A stretch of DNA of 64,000 bases, taken from contig NZ_CP026923.1 of the NCBI RefSeq assembly GCF_002950575.1, forward strand, positions 806,001 through 870,000. The letters are read 5' to 3'. The notes under the pieces are model-generated. The model searched no databases. It was given only the letters and a program-made list of their open reading frames with translations, and was not told the DNA's origin. A program made the position numbers and the translations under genes. This document shows positions 12,242 to 39,151 of this stretch, in pieces. The stretch comes from Pontimonas salivibrio. Its GTDB lineage: Bacteria > Actinomycetota > Actinomycetes > Actinomycetales > Microbacteriaceae. Each line of letters starts with the position of its first letter. Position 1 is the stretch's first letter.

Positions 12242-12315
12242 GGGGCGGTAGCTCAGCTGGTTAGAGCAGCGGACTCATAATCCGTCGGTCACGGGTTCAA
12301 GTCCCGTCCGCCCTA
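12242..12315 (+). tRNA. tRNA-Met (anticodon CAT)
   Basis: Complete cloverleaf, 74 nt to the discriminator A; CCA is not encoded (next bases CGG). The D arm is GCTC/GAGC. The anticodon stem GCGGA/TCCGT encloses the loop CTCATAA, giving anticodon CAT. The T arm is ACGGG/CCCGT around TTCAAGT. The acceptor stem ends in an unusual G1-U72 pair. The anticodon stem lacks the three G-C pairs of an initiator, so this is an elongator tRNA-Met, or possibly a lysidine-type tRNA-Ile2. Its last 44 nt recur as displaced fragments at 19507 and 21677. Confidence 0.9.
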
Positions 12316-12377
12316 CGGCCCTTGTCTCCCGAGCTGGGTGGTGTTGCGAGGCCTCGGGGTACTAGCCTTCGGGCACG

Positions 12378-13583
12378 ATGCAGATGTCGCAGCTCCGAAT
12401 CGAGGACGACCCACTGACGGTGATTCAGCGGGATTTCGTAGGGATGTATTCGGGAAATCTGGCTCTGAGCTCCATCCCTGGGGGGCAGGCAGCAGCCGAC
12501 GCCGCCTTGGCTACTCTTGATATCGCAGGTTACGCCGCGAAGCGCTCTGAGGTGCTCCCTCGTGAGGCCCGTGGAGCGAGCGTCCTGTCTCCCTACATTC
12601 GCCACAACCTGCTCACTCTGGGGGCGGTGTGGCAACGGGTACGCCAGGCACCTGCTCGGGACCGCGAGAAATATCAGGATGAACTGCTGTGGCAAGAATA
12701 TGCCCGGCATCTCTACGCCCGAATTGGGGTGCGGCTTTTTCAGAACCTCCGCTTCGATGCCCCGTGGGACCTTCCGGGTGATGGGTGGGAGACTGGAATG
12801 GCCTGTCTTGACGAGGTGGCCTCCGAGCTCGAGCAGGATGGCTGGCTTGTCAATCAGACCCGAATGTGGCTCGCCTCACACTGGAGCGTGCGGCAGGGAC
12901 GCGGTTGGCTGCACGGCCAGGAGCGCATGCACCGTGAGCTCATCGATGGCTCCCGCGCCGCCAATTTGCTGGGTTGGCAGTGGACGGTCGGGGCGGGTAC
13001 AGGCAAACCGTACGGCTTCGCCCGGTGGCAGGTCGAAAAACGCGCCCCCGGGCTGTGTCAGCGTTGTCCGTTGAGCAACCGCTGTCCGATCCAGGATTTC
13101 CCCGACACCGATACTCCGCGGGCTCTCGCGCCAGAGCCGCTGCTACAAAGCGACCCCGATGTAGAGAGCACCGCTGGGCCAAAAACTCCGGTCCACTTCG
13201 GCACGCCCGAGAAAGTGTTGCTCACTATTGACTCCCTCGGCGACGACGACCCCGCTCTATCGGCGCACCCTGATCTTCCCGCTGTGTTTGTCTTCAATGC
13301 CCCAGCGCTTGCCAAGCTCCAGTTGAGTGCCAAGCGAATCGGTTTTTATCTCCAGACCCTCCACGACCTAGCTGCTAGGCGCGAAGTGGAGGTCCTGCTG
13401 GGTGACCCCTACGAGTACGCCGCCGAGAACAAGGTGGCTGTCACCTTCGCCCCGGTTCCGTCGTTTCGTAAGTTCAGAAACCTGGTCGAGATCCACCCCT
13501 ATCCGTGGCTGCGGTCACCGCACAGTGGACCGGTCCAGAGCTTTTCTGCCTGGCGAAAAAGGCTGCCCTCCCCGTCGGCATGA
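12378..13583 (+). CDS. Photolyase/cryptochrome-like flavoprotein with permuted domain order (copy 1)
   Basis: 401 residues. Residues about 35-225 match the photolyase/cryptochrome FAD-binding helical domain: LSPYIRHNLL (as in TSRLSP), ELLWQEYARHL (as in ELIWREF), GWLVNQTRMWLASHW (as in GWMHNRLRM), ELIDGSRAANLLGWQW and a following GTGKPYG. Four Cys (143, 227, 230, 236) are spaced like the Fe-S ligands of FeS-type bacterial photolyases. The alpha/beta domain that normally comes first appears instead at about 278-345: LTIDSLGDDDPAL, LPAVFVFNAPAL, SAKRIGFYLQTL and LLGDP. The protein therefore looks circularly permuted. Role (DNA repair or light sensing) is unknown. It starts 63 nt after the tRNA-Met; TAGCCT at 12363-12368 may be a -10 box 9 nt before the ATG. 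Confidence 0.8.
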   Translation: MQMSQLRIEDDPLTVIQRDFVGMYSGNLALSSIPGGQAAADAALATLDIAGYAAKRSEVLPREARGASVLSPYIRHNLLTLGAVWQRVRQAPARDREKYQDELLWQEYARHLYARIGVRLFQNLRFDAPWDLPGDGWETGMACLDEVASELEQDGWLVNQTRMWLASHWSVRQGRGWLHGQERMHRELIDGSRAANLLGWQWTVGAGTGKPYGFARWQVEKRAPGLCQRCPLSNRCPIQDFPDTDTPRALAPEPLLQSDPDVESTAGPKTPVHFGTPEKVLLTIDSLGDDDPALSAHPDLPAVFVFNAPALAKLQLSAKRIGFYLQTLHDLAARREVEVLLGDPYEYAAENKVAVTFAPVPSFRKFRNLVEIHPYPWLRSPHSGPVQSFSAWRKRLPSPSA

Positions 13584-13661: not shown

Positions 13662-13766
13662 CTACCCAAGAGTCTCGTTGAGACCGGCGTCGACGAAGAC
13701 TTCGAGGAGGTGTGTTTGTTCGAGGAGGTCAGCGCCCTGGGCGATGCGCTCGAGGTGTGCCGTTCT
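13662..13766 (-). pseudogene. C-terminal remnant of a TetR-family regulator
   Basis: On the minus strand about 34 codons read RTAHLERIAQGADLLEQTHL, then a stretch ending LLEVFVDAGLNETLG, then a stop. This closely resembles the C-terminus of the intact TetR protein encoded at 41243-41839 (RIAEGGEFLTEARLLETFVDAGLESTL). No DNA-binding domain remains, because the FG-GAP gene occupies the sequence upstream. It is probably a fragment left by rearrangement. Confidence 0.6.
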
Positions 13767-16317
13767 AGCGCACGAGAGGCTGCAAGCTCTCCGCCGTCTT
13801 CGCCCCCAGCGTTCCTCCTGGAGTAACAGAGAAACGATTGCCGAGAACCAGGGCATGACCGGTCTCGCTCAGCGCCGTCACGGTGACCACATAGCTCCCG
13901 GGCAGTAAATCGGGTAAGGCGATGGTCTTTTCTAAATGGCCGCCCCGGTTGAGAAAGCCACTGCCGAGAACTCGGGTGGTGCCCCCGTCAGACGAGCTGG
14001 TAAGTACCAACGAATATGCGCCACCGGGGAATCCTCGGAACGCACCCCAGGTCAGCTTTGCCAGATTGATTGGTTGGCCGGGCGTGGAGCCTAGGGTGAG
14101 GAAAATGCCTGGTGTGCCGGCCACCGAAGACTCGCTTGACCGCGACGAATCCCCAGTATCGTCTGGCGTACGAAAGACATACACGGCACCTGAGGATCCC
14201 GCGTCGTCGTTGTTTTGTGCGGTGAGCTCTGCAGTTGTGAACACTCCACGCAGATCCGAATCTTCGTCAGCCGCGCCGCCGAGAATTGTCGTGCCCGCCA
14301 TAGCGACACTGCTGCCAAATCGGTCCAGGTCATCGAGCACATTGCTGGCATGGAGAGTCTGGGCGTGGCTCCATGTGCTGCCGCTCTTTGTATACACTTC
14401 GACGCTGCCCCGGGTTCCGGCGGGCGCTCCTGCAATCACCCGGTCGTCGACCACGTCGACCGATATCCCAAATGCCTTGTAGCGGTTGGGGCTGGGGCCT
14501 TTGAGGAACGCGGTCTGGGCCCACGTGGATCCATCTCTTTCGAACACGTACGCCGCGCCGGATGCGTCGCGGGAGTTGTCGCTTTGGTCGGGCGCAGAAT
14601 CGCCCCCGGCTGAATCTTCCGCGTGCGCGCCCACGACCGCAACATCACCATCTAGAGCGACGGCAAACCCAAACAGGTCGTCAGCTTCTGTGTTGCTGGC
14701 CTTCAAATATGCCTGCTCCGTCCAAGTCGACCCTGTGCGGGTGAACACATAGGCGGCGCCTGCCTCTGAGGAGTCGTCGTTATCACTACCTCCAACGCCA
14801 GTACTGTCTGAGTCTTCTTCGGATGCGCCTACCAGGAGAGAGTCACCCGACAGTGACACGGCCTCGCCGAACTCGTCGCCGGATCCGCTCGTGGAACCCT
14901 TCACTAGTCCCTGTTGGCTCCATGTTGTTCCGACCCGGTGAAAAATATAGACCGCTCCTTGGTCTGTCAGACCTTCACTCCAGGTCTGTCCGGGCGCACC
15001 GACAGCAATCGTGTCGCCGTCGATATCGACCGCCCATCCCACCCTGTCCTCAGTTGGACAGCAGGCATCAGGATGATCGGCCTTCACATACGCCTGTTGG
15101 CTCCAGGAGGTGCCATCCCGCACAAACACATAGGCTGCTCCCAGATTCGAGGCAGAGTTATTCGACTCGTTCCCATCGATTGATTGAGCGTTCGAGTCTT
15201 CGTGGGGAGCGCCAACCACGATGGTGTCCCCAGAAATCGCGACCGAAAAACCGAAACGGTCATCGGCCCCCGCGTATCTCGCCTTCAAGTAGGCCTGTTG
15301 TACCCAGGTCGAGCCGGAGCGCACAAATACGTAGGCCGCTCCGGCCTGGAGCTCCGTGTTGTCCGATTCAGTGCTGTCAGCAGAGTCTTCTCCCCACGCG
15401 CCCACCACCAACGTGTCGCCAGAGATATCTATACTGGCGCCAAAGTAATCGGCAGCCTCAGAATTGCTGGCTTTGAGGTAGGCGTCTTGGGAGAACGTGG
15501 GGTCGATGACAATGGGGTAAACAGCGGAGCGGTCATCCACTTCCAGCGAGACCGTTGCACCGCGGATCGCAAAGGTGGCGGGAAGTGTGGCCCCTGTCGC
15601 ATCCCACGCGAGTAAACGGTCCCACCGCACACGCTCGACACCTGAGGTGTCCTGGAGCGATACTGCGTGAGCGAGCGGCCGGGGTGTCAGACCAGAAAAC
15701 CTCAGGTCGATAGAGACTGGGCCCTCTCCGGACGGAGAATCTTCGAGAACATAGCCGTGTTCAATACCGTCGTCCACGCGCCAGTATTCGGCCACTGTGC
15801 TGTTGTGCACCAGATGGTGTTGCCAGACGACGAGACCGTCCACCTCTGGCATCGTGGTGTGCTGGATTCTTGCGGATACCTGCCCTCGCCCCACGGACTC
15901 GAGCGTCATGGTCAGGGTAGGGAGCACCGGGCTCGACACCTGTGCCTGAGCTCCGAAGACGGAAGCCGAGAGTCCTGTTGCGTCGGTTAATCGCACTGCC
16001 CCCGATGGGCTTGTTCGAGGAATAGCGAGGCTGTGGGACGCCGAGGGGTGGTTATCTAGTCCCTGGAGCACTCTGTTCGGCTCGGTGAAGGAAGGGGTGC
16101 CAGTCGTCGTTGCAGAATCCTCACCCAAGGGCGGACCGATCGCCGCTAGGGGTGGGTTCACCGGGGAGTCACCGGGCTGGACCGGTGTTGGTGCCATCAC
16201 GCCCGACAGCACCAGGGCTCCCGCGACCAGACATGCGGGGAGCAGCCAGTCCCGGGCCCTCGATTTGCGGGTTCTCACCGGTGTCGAGTGCGTTTCGTTC
16301 GTACCCTGTGTGTCCAT
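13765..16317 (-). CDS. Exported seven-repeat FG-GAP (beta-propeller) protein
   Basis: 850 residues from the ATG at 16317; an in-frame GTG at 16353 would add 12. A basic stretch and hydrophobic segment (LLPACLVAGALVLSG) near the N-terminus form a signal peptide or membrane anchor. Seven integrin-type FG-GAP repeats follow between about residues 280 and 720. Each has a core such as DYFGASIDISGDTLVVGA and a partner strand GAAYVFVRSGSTW, which predicts a seven-bladed propeller. The acidic DSxx loops between blades resemble Ca-binding sites. No LPXTG motif is seen. It lies directly downstream of a histidine kinase/response regulator pair on the same strand, with a palindromic operator in the gap, so that system may control it. 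Surface adhesion or ligand binding is an inference. Confidence 0.85.
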   Translation of the reverse strand: MDTQGTNETHSTPVRTRKSRARDWLLPACLVAGALVLSGVMAPTPVQPGDSPVNPPLAAIGPPLGEDSATTTGTPSFTEPNRVLQGLDNHPSASHSLAIPRTSPSGAVRLTDATGLSASVFGAQAQVSSPVLPTLTMTLESVGRGQVSARIQHTTMPEVDGLVVWQHHLVHNSTVAEYWRVDDGIEHGYVLEDSPSGEGPVSIDLRFSGLTPRPLAHAVSLQDTSGVERVRWDRLLAWDATGATLPATFAIRGATVSLEVDDRSAVYPIVIDPTFSQDAYLKASNSEAADYFGASIDISGDTLVVGAWGEDSADSTESDNTELQAGAAYVFVRSGSTWVQQAYLKARYAGADDRFGFSVAISGDTIVVGAPHEDSNAQSIDGNESNNSASNLGAAYVFVRDGTSWSQQAYVKADHPDACCPTEDRVGWAVDIDGDTIAVGAPGQTWSEGLTDQGAVYIFHRVGTTWSQQGLVKGSTSGSGDEFGEAVSLSGDSLLVGASEEDSDSTGVGGSDNDDSSEAGAAYVFTRTGSTWTEQAYLKASNTEADDLFGFAVALDGDVAVVGAHAEDSAGGDSAPDQSDNSRDASGAAYVFERDGSTWAQTAFLKGPSPNRYKAFGISVDVVDDRVIAGAPAGTRGSVEVYTKSGSTWSHAQTLHASNVLDDLDRFGSSVAMAGTTILGGAADEDSDLRGVFTTAELTAQNNDDAGSSGAVYVFRTPDDTGDSSRSSESSVAGTPGIFLTLGSTPGQPINLAKLTWGAFRGFPGGAYSLVLTSSSDGGTTRVLGSGFLNRGGHLEKTIALPDLLPGSYVVTVTALSETGHALVLGNRFSVTPGGTLGAKTAESLQPLVR

Positions 16318-16354
16318 GTGGCAAGCGAATCCAGCGCAGAAGTATTTCGCCACC

Positions 16355-37862: not shown

Positions 37863-37954
37863 GGTGAAAGCTTAGGTGTCCCAGCTTGTCGGCCGAAGGC
37901 GGGGAGGGATTTGCCTGGGAGCAGTCATCACTTCGGCTGGGTAGCCTCCTTTTT

Positions 37955-39151
37955 ATGGAGTTTCGCGACATCCCGGTAGTCGATGACCCGGAGAAGGTCA
38001 TCGAACGCCATTTCGACGGGCTCTACTCTGGGCCTGTGGCGTTGAGCCCCATCCCGGGTGGGCAAACGGCCGCCGATCAGGCCTTGGCCACCCTAGACAT
38101 CGCGGGTTATGCCGCGACTCGCTCTGAAGTGCTACCGAAAGAGCGCCGCGGGGCGAGTGTCCTCTCGCCCTACATTCGACACAACCTGTTACCCCTCGGG
38201 GAGGTCTATCAGGCTGTGAAGGACGCGCCGGCTCGTGATCGGGAAAAGTTTCGAGACGAATTGTTGTGGCAGGAATACGCCAGGCATCTTTATGCCCGGG
38301 TGGGTACGAGGCTGTTTTCGAACCTGCGTTTTGAGGCCACCTGGGATACGCCGGGAGATGGCTGGAATCGTGACATGGCCTGTGTGGATGAGGTTGCCTC
38401 CGAGCTGGAAACCGACGGTTGGTTGGTCAACCAGACCCGCATGTGGTTGGCCTCGCATTGGACGGTTCGCAACGGCGCAGGGTGGCTTCACGGTCAAGAG
38501 CGGATGCACCGAGAGCTCATCGATGGTTCGAGGGCTGCCAACCTTTTAGGTTGGCAGTGGACCGTGGGATCAGGAACCGGTAAGCCTTACGGTTTCGCCC
38601 GCTGGCAGGTCGAAAAGCGGGCACCGGGTTTATGTGAGCGCTGCCCCCTCTCAAGCCAATGCCCAATCGAAGAGTTCCCCGACTCCACACCACTGCGGGA
38701 ATTGGCGGATGAGCCACTATTGAGGCACGACTCGGATCCAGAGGCGACCGCAGGTCCCGACCGACCAATCAGGCTTCGCTCGCCGGAATATGTGTTGTTG
38801 ACCATTGATTCTTTGGGTGATGACGACCCGGCCCTGCAGGCCCACCCCGAGCTTCCCGTCGTTTTCGTGTTCAATGAGCCCGCTCTCACCCGTCTTCAGC
38901 TCAGCGCAAAGCGCATCGGTTTTTACCTGCAAACCTTGGCGGATTTGTCGACCAGGCGCGACGTTCGAGTGCTGTTGGGTGATCCTTATGTGTTCACCGA
39001 ACAATATTCAGTGGCCGTGACGTACGCCCCGGTACCGTCGTTTAAGAAATTCACCCGATTGGCGGAGGTTCACCCCTACCCGTGGTTGAGACGACCACAC
39101 GGTGGGTCAGTGAGAAGCTTCTCGGCCTGGCGTCGGGGGCTCGGCAAATGA
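37955..39151 (+). CDS. Photolyase/cryptochrome-like flavoprotein with permuted domain order (copy 2)
   Basis: 398 residues, co-linear with copy 1 and without indels up to the C-terminal few residues. It shares the FAD-domain motifs (LSPYIRHNLL, ELLWQEYARHL, GWLVNQTRMWLASHW, DGSRAANLLGWQW) and the four Cys at 143, 227, 230 and 236. The alpha/beta domain again follows rather than precedes (DSLGDDDPAL, LPVVFVFNEPAL, SAKRIGFYLQTL, LLGDP). The ATG at 37955 was chosen because it aligns with copy 1 and has TAGCCT 7 nt upstream, giving a leaderless transcript; an in-frame start at 37886 would add 23 unmatched residues. TetR and desaturase genes lie downstream. DNA repair or blue-light sensing is inferred. 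Confidence 0.8.
   Translation: MEFRDIPVVDDPEKVIERHFDGLYSGPVALSPIPGGQTAADQALATLDIAGYAATRSEVLPKERRGASVLSPYIRHNLLPLGEVYQAVKDAPARDREKFRDELLWQEYARHLYARVGTRLFSNLRFEATWDTPGDGWNRDMACVDEVASELETDGWLVNQTRMWLASHWTVRNGAGWLHGQERMHRELIDGSRAANLLGWQWTVGSGTGKPYGFARWQVEKRAPGLCERCPLSSQCPIEEFPDSTPLRELADEPLLRHDSDPEATAGPDRPIRLRSPEYVLLTIDSLGDDDPALQAHPELPVVFVFNEPALTRLQLSAKRIGFYLQTLADLSTRRDVRVLLGDPYVFTEQYSVAVTYAPVPSFKKFTRLAEVHPYPWLRRPHGGSVRSFSAWRRGLGK

Follow-up and report, generated by a model that had tools for sequence, protein, structure and literature searches.

The 64,000-nucleotide (nt) window analyzed here (positions 806001 to 870000 of C1, the single contig of the 1.76-Mb genome of Pontimonas salivibrio, NZ_CP026923.1) contains a real and well-conserved gene for a photolyase/cryptochrome protein in which the two domains stand in reversed order and which has Fe-S-type cysteines. 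The coding sequence (CDS) occupies positions 12378 to 13583 of the + strand, from ATG to TGA, and encodes 401 amino acids (aa), beginning with MQMSQLRIEDD and ending with RLPSPSA. The closest relatives of the protein are found in marine and freshwater Microbacteriaceae, e.g., Pontimonas, Aquiluna, and Rhodoluna.

Coding evidence

Compared with its ortholog in TMED98, which is 86% identical, the gene has an overall dN/dS of 0.088, a low value that led us to reject a frameshifted gene or pseudogene. By part, dN/dS is 0.058 in the FAD half, 0.146 in the linker, and 0.075 in the alpha/beta half. Mean conservation among 61 aligned relatives follows the same division: 75 to 80% in the FAD half, 70% in residues 277 to 401, and 49% in the interdomain linker (residues ∼241 to 277; positions 13098 to 13208, + strand), which is the least conserved stretch besides the N-terminal end. 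An antisense reading was also considered and rejected; the minus strand of the interval is interrupted by stops.

All of the motifs named by the first-pass annotation are present in the open reading frame (ORF). Its residue numbers were exact for the four cysteines (143, 227, 230, and 236) and displaced for some of the motifs, which lie at residues 70 to 79 (LSPYIRHNLL), 102 to 112 (ELLWQEYARHL), 155 to 165 (GWLVNQTRMWL), 190 to 202 (DGSRAANLLGWQW), 285 to 294 (DSLGDDDPAL), 301 to 311 (PAVFVFNAPAL), 317 to 328 (SAKRIGFYLQTL), and 340 to 344 (LLGDP).

Order of the two domains

That this is a member of the photolyase/cryptochrome superfamily with its domains reversed, as the first-pass annotation had claimed, is borne out by Pfam, by the Pfam matches of relatives, and by a ranking with profile hidden Markov models (HMMs). 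The FAD-binding (catalytic) domain comprises residues ∼34 to 240 (positions 12477 to 13097, + strand) and was identified by Pfam, phmmer, and Foldseek. Separate profile searches for the two domains had been suggested at the outset, and the two halves answered differently. The sole Pfam match in the protein is FAD_binding_7 (PF03441) at residues 136 to 209, with an E value of 3.8e-9 and a score above the gathering score; the alpha/beta family PF00875 (DNA_photolyase) gave no match in the protein itself, although it did in relatives (see below). Among PDB chains, phmmer matched residues 34 to 210 to the Thermus thermophilus photolyase (1iqr; E = 2.9e-12), and further matches were to the A. nidulans (1owl) and Escherichia coli (1dnp) proteins. 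An AlphaFold2 model made with 45 relatives had a mean pLDDT of 91.3 and a pTM of 0.92. With the whole model, Foldseek returned photolyases and cryptochromes exclusively at E < 0.001, including 1iqr and the Fe-S proteins PhrB (4dja) and CryB (3zxs). These alignments spanned ∼200 to 260 columns with TM scores of ∼0.43, values that fit a match of one domain of the two, as expected if the domain order differs.

The C-terminal photolyase-type alpha/beta domain comprises residues ∼278 to 395 (positions 13209 to 13562, + strand) and was assigned from the AlphaFold2 model, the HMM ranking, and the PF00875 matches of relatives. A structure prediction had also been proposed as a check, and its outcome for this half was divided. 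Residues 278 to 395 are modeled in beta-alpha order, strands alternating with helices (strands at 279 to 283, 302 to 307, 337 to 342, and 353 to 356; helices at 318 to 332 and 344 to 350), with pLDDT mostly above 90. Foldseek with the isolated domain model, however, gave nothing at E < 0.1. The best E value was 0.12, and many of the weak matches were HUP-type Rossmann folds, among them universal stress proteins (USPs), PPAT, a class II photolyase, and mouse CRY2. This isolated domain is the weakest point of the case for inverted order.

The profile comparisons speak more clearly. Two Deinococcus relatives, P0002 (residues 300 to 395, E = 7e-4) and P0006 (E = 2e-4), are matched by PF00875 at the equivalent position, in both cases under the curated cutoff, and in neither does a USP or other Rossmann family compete there. 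A search of the 1,961 ORFs of all fetched loci with an HMM of 20 classical photolyase N-domains ranked true photolyases first, followed by an almost unbroken run of inverted proteins matched in their C-terminal halves. (One row of this ranking, L121, + strand, 5132, is labeled “INVERTED” through its locus only and is a different ORF.) In the reverse search, of a C-terminal profile against classical proteins, the best three background matches were classical photolyases, although at weak E values (0.02 to 0.2). Aligned directly by hhalign, the C-terminal and classical N-domain profiles scored 16.4 (P = 0.0036, at low Neff), compared with 0.3 to 10.5 for 20 column shuffles, one of which reached 10.5; the register is exact from beta1 through beta3. 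The HMM ranking and the Deinococcus relatives thus indicate, if indirectly, that the C-terminal domain is homologous to PF00875. Placement of the alpha/beta domain last is also supported by Deinococcus sp. QL22, in which the halves are separate genes with a 4-base overlap, split exactly at the domain junction (L118:2896-4187; plasmid unnamed3, NZ_CP097153.1). The FAD half has 257 aa and carries the Cys set; the second half is a 173-aa “hypothetical protein” beginning MSAVVWIHGDSLSITDPALSAQPDAPALFVFD. On three other Deinococcus plasmids the halves are fused, again with the FAD half leading, and Bacteroidota relatives also keep the FAD domain first. The protein had been described as circularly permuted. 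This holds for the order of the domains: the inversion amounts to a circular permutation with its breakpoint between the two domains, each of which has a normal internal order.

Cysteines and active site

Residue conservation was scored in an alignment of 81 relatives, full-length or partial, with invariance counted where a residue is present. The codon of Cys143, a candidate distal Fe-S ligand, is at positions 12804 to 12806 (+ strand); the residue is Cys in 80 of 80 relatives and falls in the column of the distal Cys of FeS-BCP proteins. Cys227, Cys230, and Cys236 form a CxxCx5C cluster (positions 13056 to 13085, + strand) that is present in 81 of 81 relatives and is aligned with the FeS-BCP cluster. 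In an alignment with FeS-BCP proteins encoded by this genome and by neighboring ones, all four occupy the columns of the Fe-S cysteines, and in the same order: the distal Cys precedes the GWxxxxxRM helix and is followed by CxxC and then by the third Cys of the cluster. The cysteine spacing had been called close to the FeS pattern, which is true of the columns but less so of the distances. The spacing is 84-3-6, and its last gap of +6 compares with +13 in the aligned FeS-BCP proteins; it is nearly that of RS9916 Phr4, whose cysteines C169, C254, C257, and C263 are spaced 85-3-6 (PMC9426592). Because the cysteines are homologous to those of FeS-BCP proteins and Phr4, we infer that they probably bind a [4Fe-4S]-type cluster.

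Alignment to E. coli Phr, in the usual numbering (alignment output, in which Met1 is counted, minus one), equates E102 with E274, W105 with W277, N159 with N341, M163 with M345, W177 with W359, N196 with N378, W200 with W382, and W202 with W384. Besides the four cysteines, the invariant residues are E102, W105, Q106, N159, Q160, W164, W177, D190, N196, W200, and W202; residue 163 is Met in 78 of 80 relatives. The residues at the N159 and M163 positions are His and Leu in the (6-4)-type FeS-BCP proteins. Asn and Met in their place point to a CPD-type rather than a (6-4)-type active site and argue against (6-4) function. Two residues depart from the class I pattern: Gln106 and Gln160 are invariant where class I has Arg (R278 and R342 in E. 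coli), and they are a signature of the clade. Arg278 and Arg342 of class I enzymes contact DNA, and so the exchange for Gln leaves room for a loss of repair.

Trp177 and Trp200 are the first and last codons of positions 12906 to 12977 (+ strand), with Asp190 and Asn196 between them. The equivalent of E. coli W306 is not conserved in the inverted actinobacterial family, and hence a Trp dyad remains. Such a dyad is also reported for the NewPHL of Dinoroseobacter shibae (PMC8948257), and the Asn that faces FAD N5 (here N196) is kept in class I, DASH, and NewPHL proteins (PMC12083526).

Phylogeny and distribution

Trees were made from the FAD-domain columns with the Cys143 column removed. The actinobacterial inverted proteins form one clade, supported at 97/96 and 100/100 in two trees, and the NewPHL-like, class I, and FeS-BCP proteins form separate clades. 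The FAD domain of the 401-aa protein branches with class I and NewPHL, far from FeS-BCP. Together with the CPD-type residues, this contradicts the proposal that the protein is a permuted member of the FeS-BCP subfamily. In the best tree a single branch sets off all of the inverted proteins, though with low support (47/42), and a grouping of the Cys-bearing inverted proteins of Actinomycetota and Deinococcus was not rejected (p-AU = 0.245).

Relatives were found at 54 loci in the searched genome contigs, in 8 of 60 near genomes (the own genome excluded; matches at E < 1e-120), and in ∼25 of 397 Actinomycetota genomes sampled evenly from the phylum (∼6 to 7%). Their identities to the 401-aa protein are ∼49 to 86%, mostly across the full length. 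Among viral contigs and phage records an inverted member was absent; the phage records gave matches to the FAD domain only. The same P. salivibrio genome also has a classical photolyase (C1:264608) and an FeS-BCP/CryB-type protein (C1:1484040).

A paralog lies in the window 25 kb from the gene, at positions 37955 to 39151 (+ strand; the ORF may start at 37886). It has 398 aa, is 75% identical, and has the same motifs and Cys set. Since the 12378 copy groups with the TMED98 protein (86%), the two look like paralogs rather than a recent duplication.

Two further sets of proteins lack the Cys cluster. On Persicobacter plasmids (Bacteroidota; L122:2857-5524 and L123:2734-5539) an inverted-type protein is followed directly by a class I photolyase gene; the two open frames overlap, and both regions are unannotated in the records. 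The Microbacteriaceae genomes G022 and G025 encode NewPHL-like proteins (L015 and L016) that are 41 to 46% identical to an alphaproteobacterial NewPHL-like protein.

Genomic neighborhood

Among the loci compared there was no operon conserved across the inverted family, and no regulator gene was consistently adjacent. In the window, a tRNA-Met gene (positions 12242 to 12316) precedes the photolyase gene. The family gene often adjoins a tRNA gene for Met, Thr, or Lys (the window, L040, L057, L058, L060, L061, L062, L070, and L124), and such sites may be variable points of insertion. Directly downstream and convergent (positions 13765 to 16353, − strand) is a gene for an 862-aa protein with five FG-GAP repeats.

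In Cryobacterium the neighbor is a rhodopsin gene (Pfam Bac_rhodopsin, E = 3e-39). It is directly upstream of and codirectional with the inverted photolyase gene at six loci (L073, L076, L077, L078, L079, and L089), adjacent and divergent at L074, and ∼2.8 kb away at L072. In Rhodoluna-type genomes the neighbors are tRNA-Lys and peroxiredoxin genes. Genome G028 (1,430,433 bp) has a classical photolyase gene at 0.807 Mb, the inverted gene at 1.105 Mb, and an FeS-BCP gene at 1.330 Mb, positions proportional to the Rhodoluna lacicola tags rhola_00007890 (phrB), rhola_00011000 (cpf2), and rhola_00013030 (cryB). The R. lacicola paper names rhola_00011030 as a peroxiredoxin (PMC8591293). Because gene order (family gene, tRNA-Lys, peroxiredoxin) and proportional position agree, R. 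lacicola CPF2 is very probably the ortholog in the inverted family.

Function

On balance, we favor the reading that the 401-aa protein is a light-driven CPD repair flavoprotein with inverted domain order and an Fe-S cluster, possibly acting on a single-stranded substrate. In this reading a photolyase-type alpha/beta domain in reduced form follows the FAD domain, at whose end the four cysteines would hold a [4Fe-4S]-type cluster. Blue or UV-A light would drive DNA repair: FAD would be photoreduced through the two-Trp chain of W200 and W177, and excited FADH− would transfer one electron to the UV lesion, which W105, W202, N159, and M163 would hold in place. The lesion would most likely be a cyclobutane pyrimidine dimer (CPD), and the DNA may be single stranded, as it is for NewPHL. 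The C-terminal domain probably covers the FAD site rather than acting as a normal antenna module. Several points count against repair. The replacement of R278 and R342 by Q106 and Q160 could weaken DNA binding, and repair may be redundant because a classical photolyase and an FeS-BCP member are encoded elsewhere in the genome. In addition, the isolated C-terminal domain had no significant fold match, and the protection that phr4/5 gave E. coli was not light dependent (PMC9426592).

The main rival reading is that of a bacterial cryptochrome sensing blue light, in which a light-induced redox change of FAD would be signaled through the Fe-S cluster or the C-terminal domain, repair having been lost. 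We regard this as possible, if somewhat unlikely. It would account for the two invariant Gln residues in the active site, for the presence of two paralogs in a genome whose other cryptochrome-photolyase family (CPF) members can provide repair, and for the rhodopsin gene codirectional and upstream at six Cryobacterium loci and divergent at a seventh. Moreover, cpf2, the likely ortholog, appears among the putative light sensors of R. lacicola, where its transcript pattern follows those of actinorhodopsin and phrB (PMC8591293). However, the CPD residues N159, M163, W105, W202, and E102 are invariant or nearly so, no regulator gene accompanies the family consistently among the loci compared, and the characterized relatives with the same domain order serve UV survival (PMC9426592). 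A more specific version, that the actinobacterial clade with its double Arg-to-Gln exchange and Fe-S cysteines is a distinct inverted blue-light photoreceptor working with rhodopsins, seems to us doubtful. If true, such a rhodopsin-linked photoreceptor could be the blue-light sensor that underlies the growth response of actinobacteria in fresh and marine waters to light.

Fe-S cysteines do not define the lesion: CryB of R. sphaeroides, which belongs to the FeS-BCP group and has an Fe-S cluster, has been studied as a cryptochrome. This bears on a third reading, a (6-4) photolyase, which we think improbable for the 401-aa protein. The Fe-S cysteines of Phr4/5 and Phr6 led to the proposal of this function in Synechococcus, and the loss of phr4 matters there for survival of UV-C and not of UV-B (PMC9426592); the Cys set described here is positionally homologous to that of FeS-BCP (6-4) photolyases, but where those have active-site His and Leu it is accompanied by Asn and Met, as in CPD photolyases. 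It is highly improbable that an unrelated Rossmann-like domain (e.g., a USP-like HUP domain) makes up the C-terminal segment, which would be a replacement instead of an inversion: the best Foldseek matches of the isolated domain are USPs and other folds at E values of 0.1 to 1, with photolyase and cryptochrome matches equally weak, and the hhalign P is only 0.0036, but the classical HMM puts many inverted C-terminal halves directly after the photolyases, the two Deinococcus relatives match PF00875 and no USP or Rossmann family, and the beta1-to-beta3 register is exact.

Comparison with known systems

The first-pass annotation knew of no described permuted member, but NewPHL (2020) and Phr4/5 and Phr6 (2022; PMC9426592) had already been described, and the 401-aa protein is an actinobacterial branch of this known inverted-order kind. 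NewPHL (Emmerich et al. 2020, NAR; reference 48 in PMC9426592) is reported in PMC8948257 and PMC9426592 to have CPD function, inverted order, and a Trp dyad; examples are the proteins of D. shibae and Methylobacterium mesophilicum, and Phr7. Inverted order and a CPD-type active site are common to NewPHL and the 401-aa protein, but the NewPHL-like proteins P0003, P0007, L015, and L016 are without the Cys cluster, differ in the sequence of the C-terminal domain, and fall into a well-supported clade of their own.

Judged by their published descriptions, Phr4/Phr5 and Phr6 of marine Synechococcus and Cyanobium (PMC9426592, mBio 2022) are closer in their cysteines. They too have the FAD domain first and the alpha/beta domain second, and the Phr4 spacing nearly equals that found here. 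The cyanobacterial proteins are mostly encoded by two ORFs, whereas the Pontimonas protein is encoded by one; the two-gene split of QL22 parallels phr4/phr5 and phr6. In Synechococcus, phr4/phr5 protect cells against UV-C, and a (6-4) function was proposed for Phr4/6 from their Fe-S cysteines (PMC9426592). The active-site residues argue against carrying this assignment over to the actinobacterial clade.

The FeS-BCP or prokaryotic (6-4) photolyases and CryB (PhrB, 4dja; CryB, 3zxs) have the four cysteines in the same columns and match the FAD half in Foldseek. They differ in their normal order, the His/Leu site, the last Cys gap of +13, their distant clade, and their DPRP-type N-terminal domain, which Pfam did not find in the 401-aa protein. 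With class I CPD photolyases (E. coli and T. thermophilus Phr) the protein shares the CPD active-site residues and the FAD fold, but class I has the normal order, no Cys cluster, a Trp triad, and Arg in place of the two Gln. R. lacicola CPF2 was reported as an uncharacterized cryptochrome-photolyase family protein in a 2021 paper that does not mention a permuted architecture (PMC8591293).

In the literature searched, there appears to be no description of how large and how conserved the actinobacterial clade is, of its Gln-modified CPD-type site, of the fused and split Deinococcus forms, or of the rhodopsin neighborhood. The inverted-order Fe-S photolyase type is no peculiarity of cyanobacteria; among Actinomycetota it is common in planktonic and cold-adapted members, and it is also present in Deinococcus. 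Its single-ORF, strictly conserved members occur in the culturable hosts Rhodoluna and Cryobacterium, which makes testable both the role of the Fe-S cluster and the choice among (6-4) repair, CPD repair, and light sensing.
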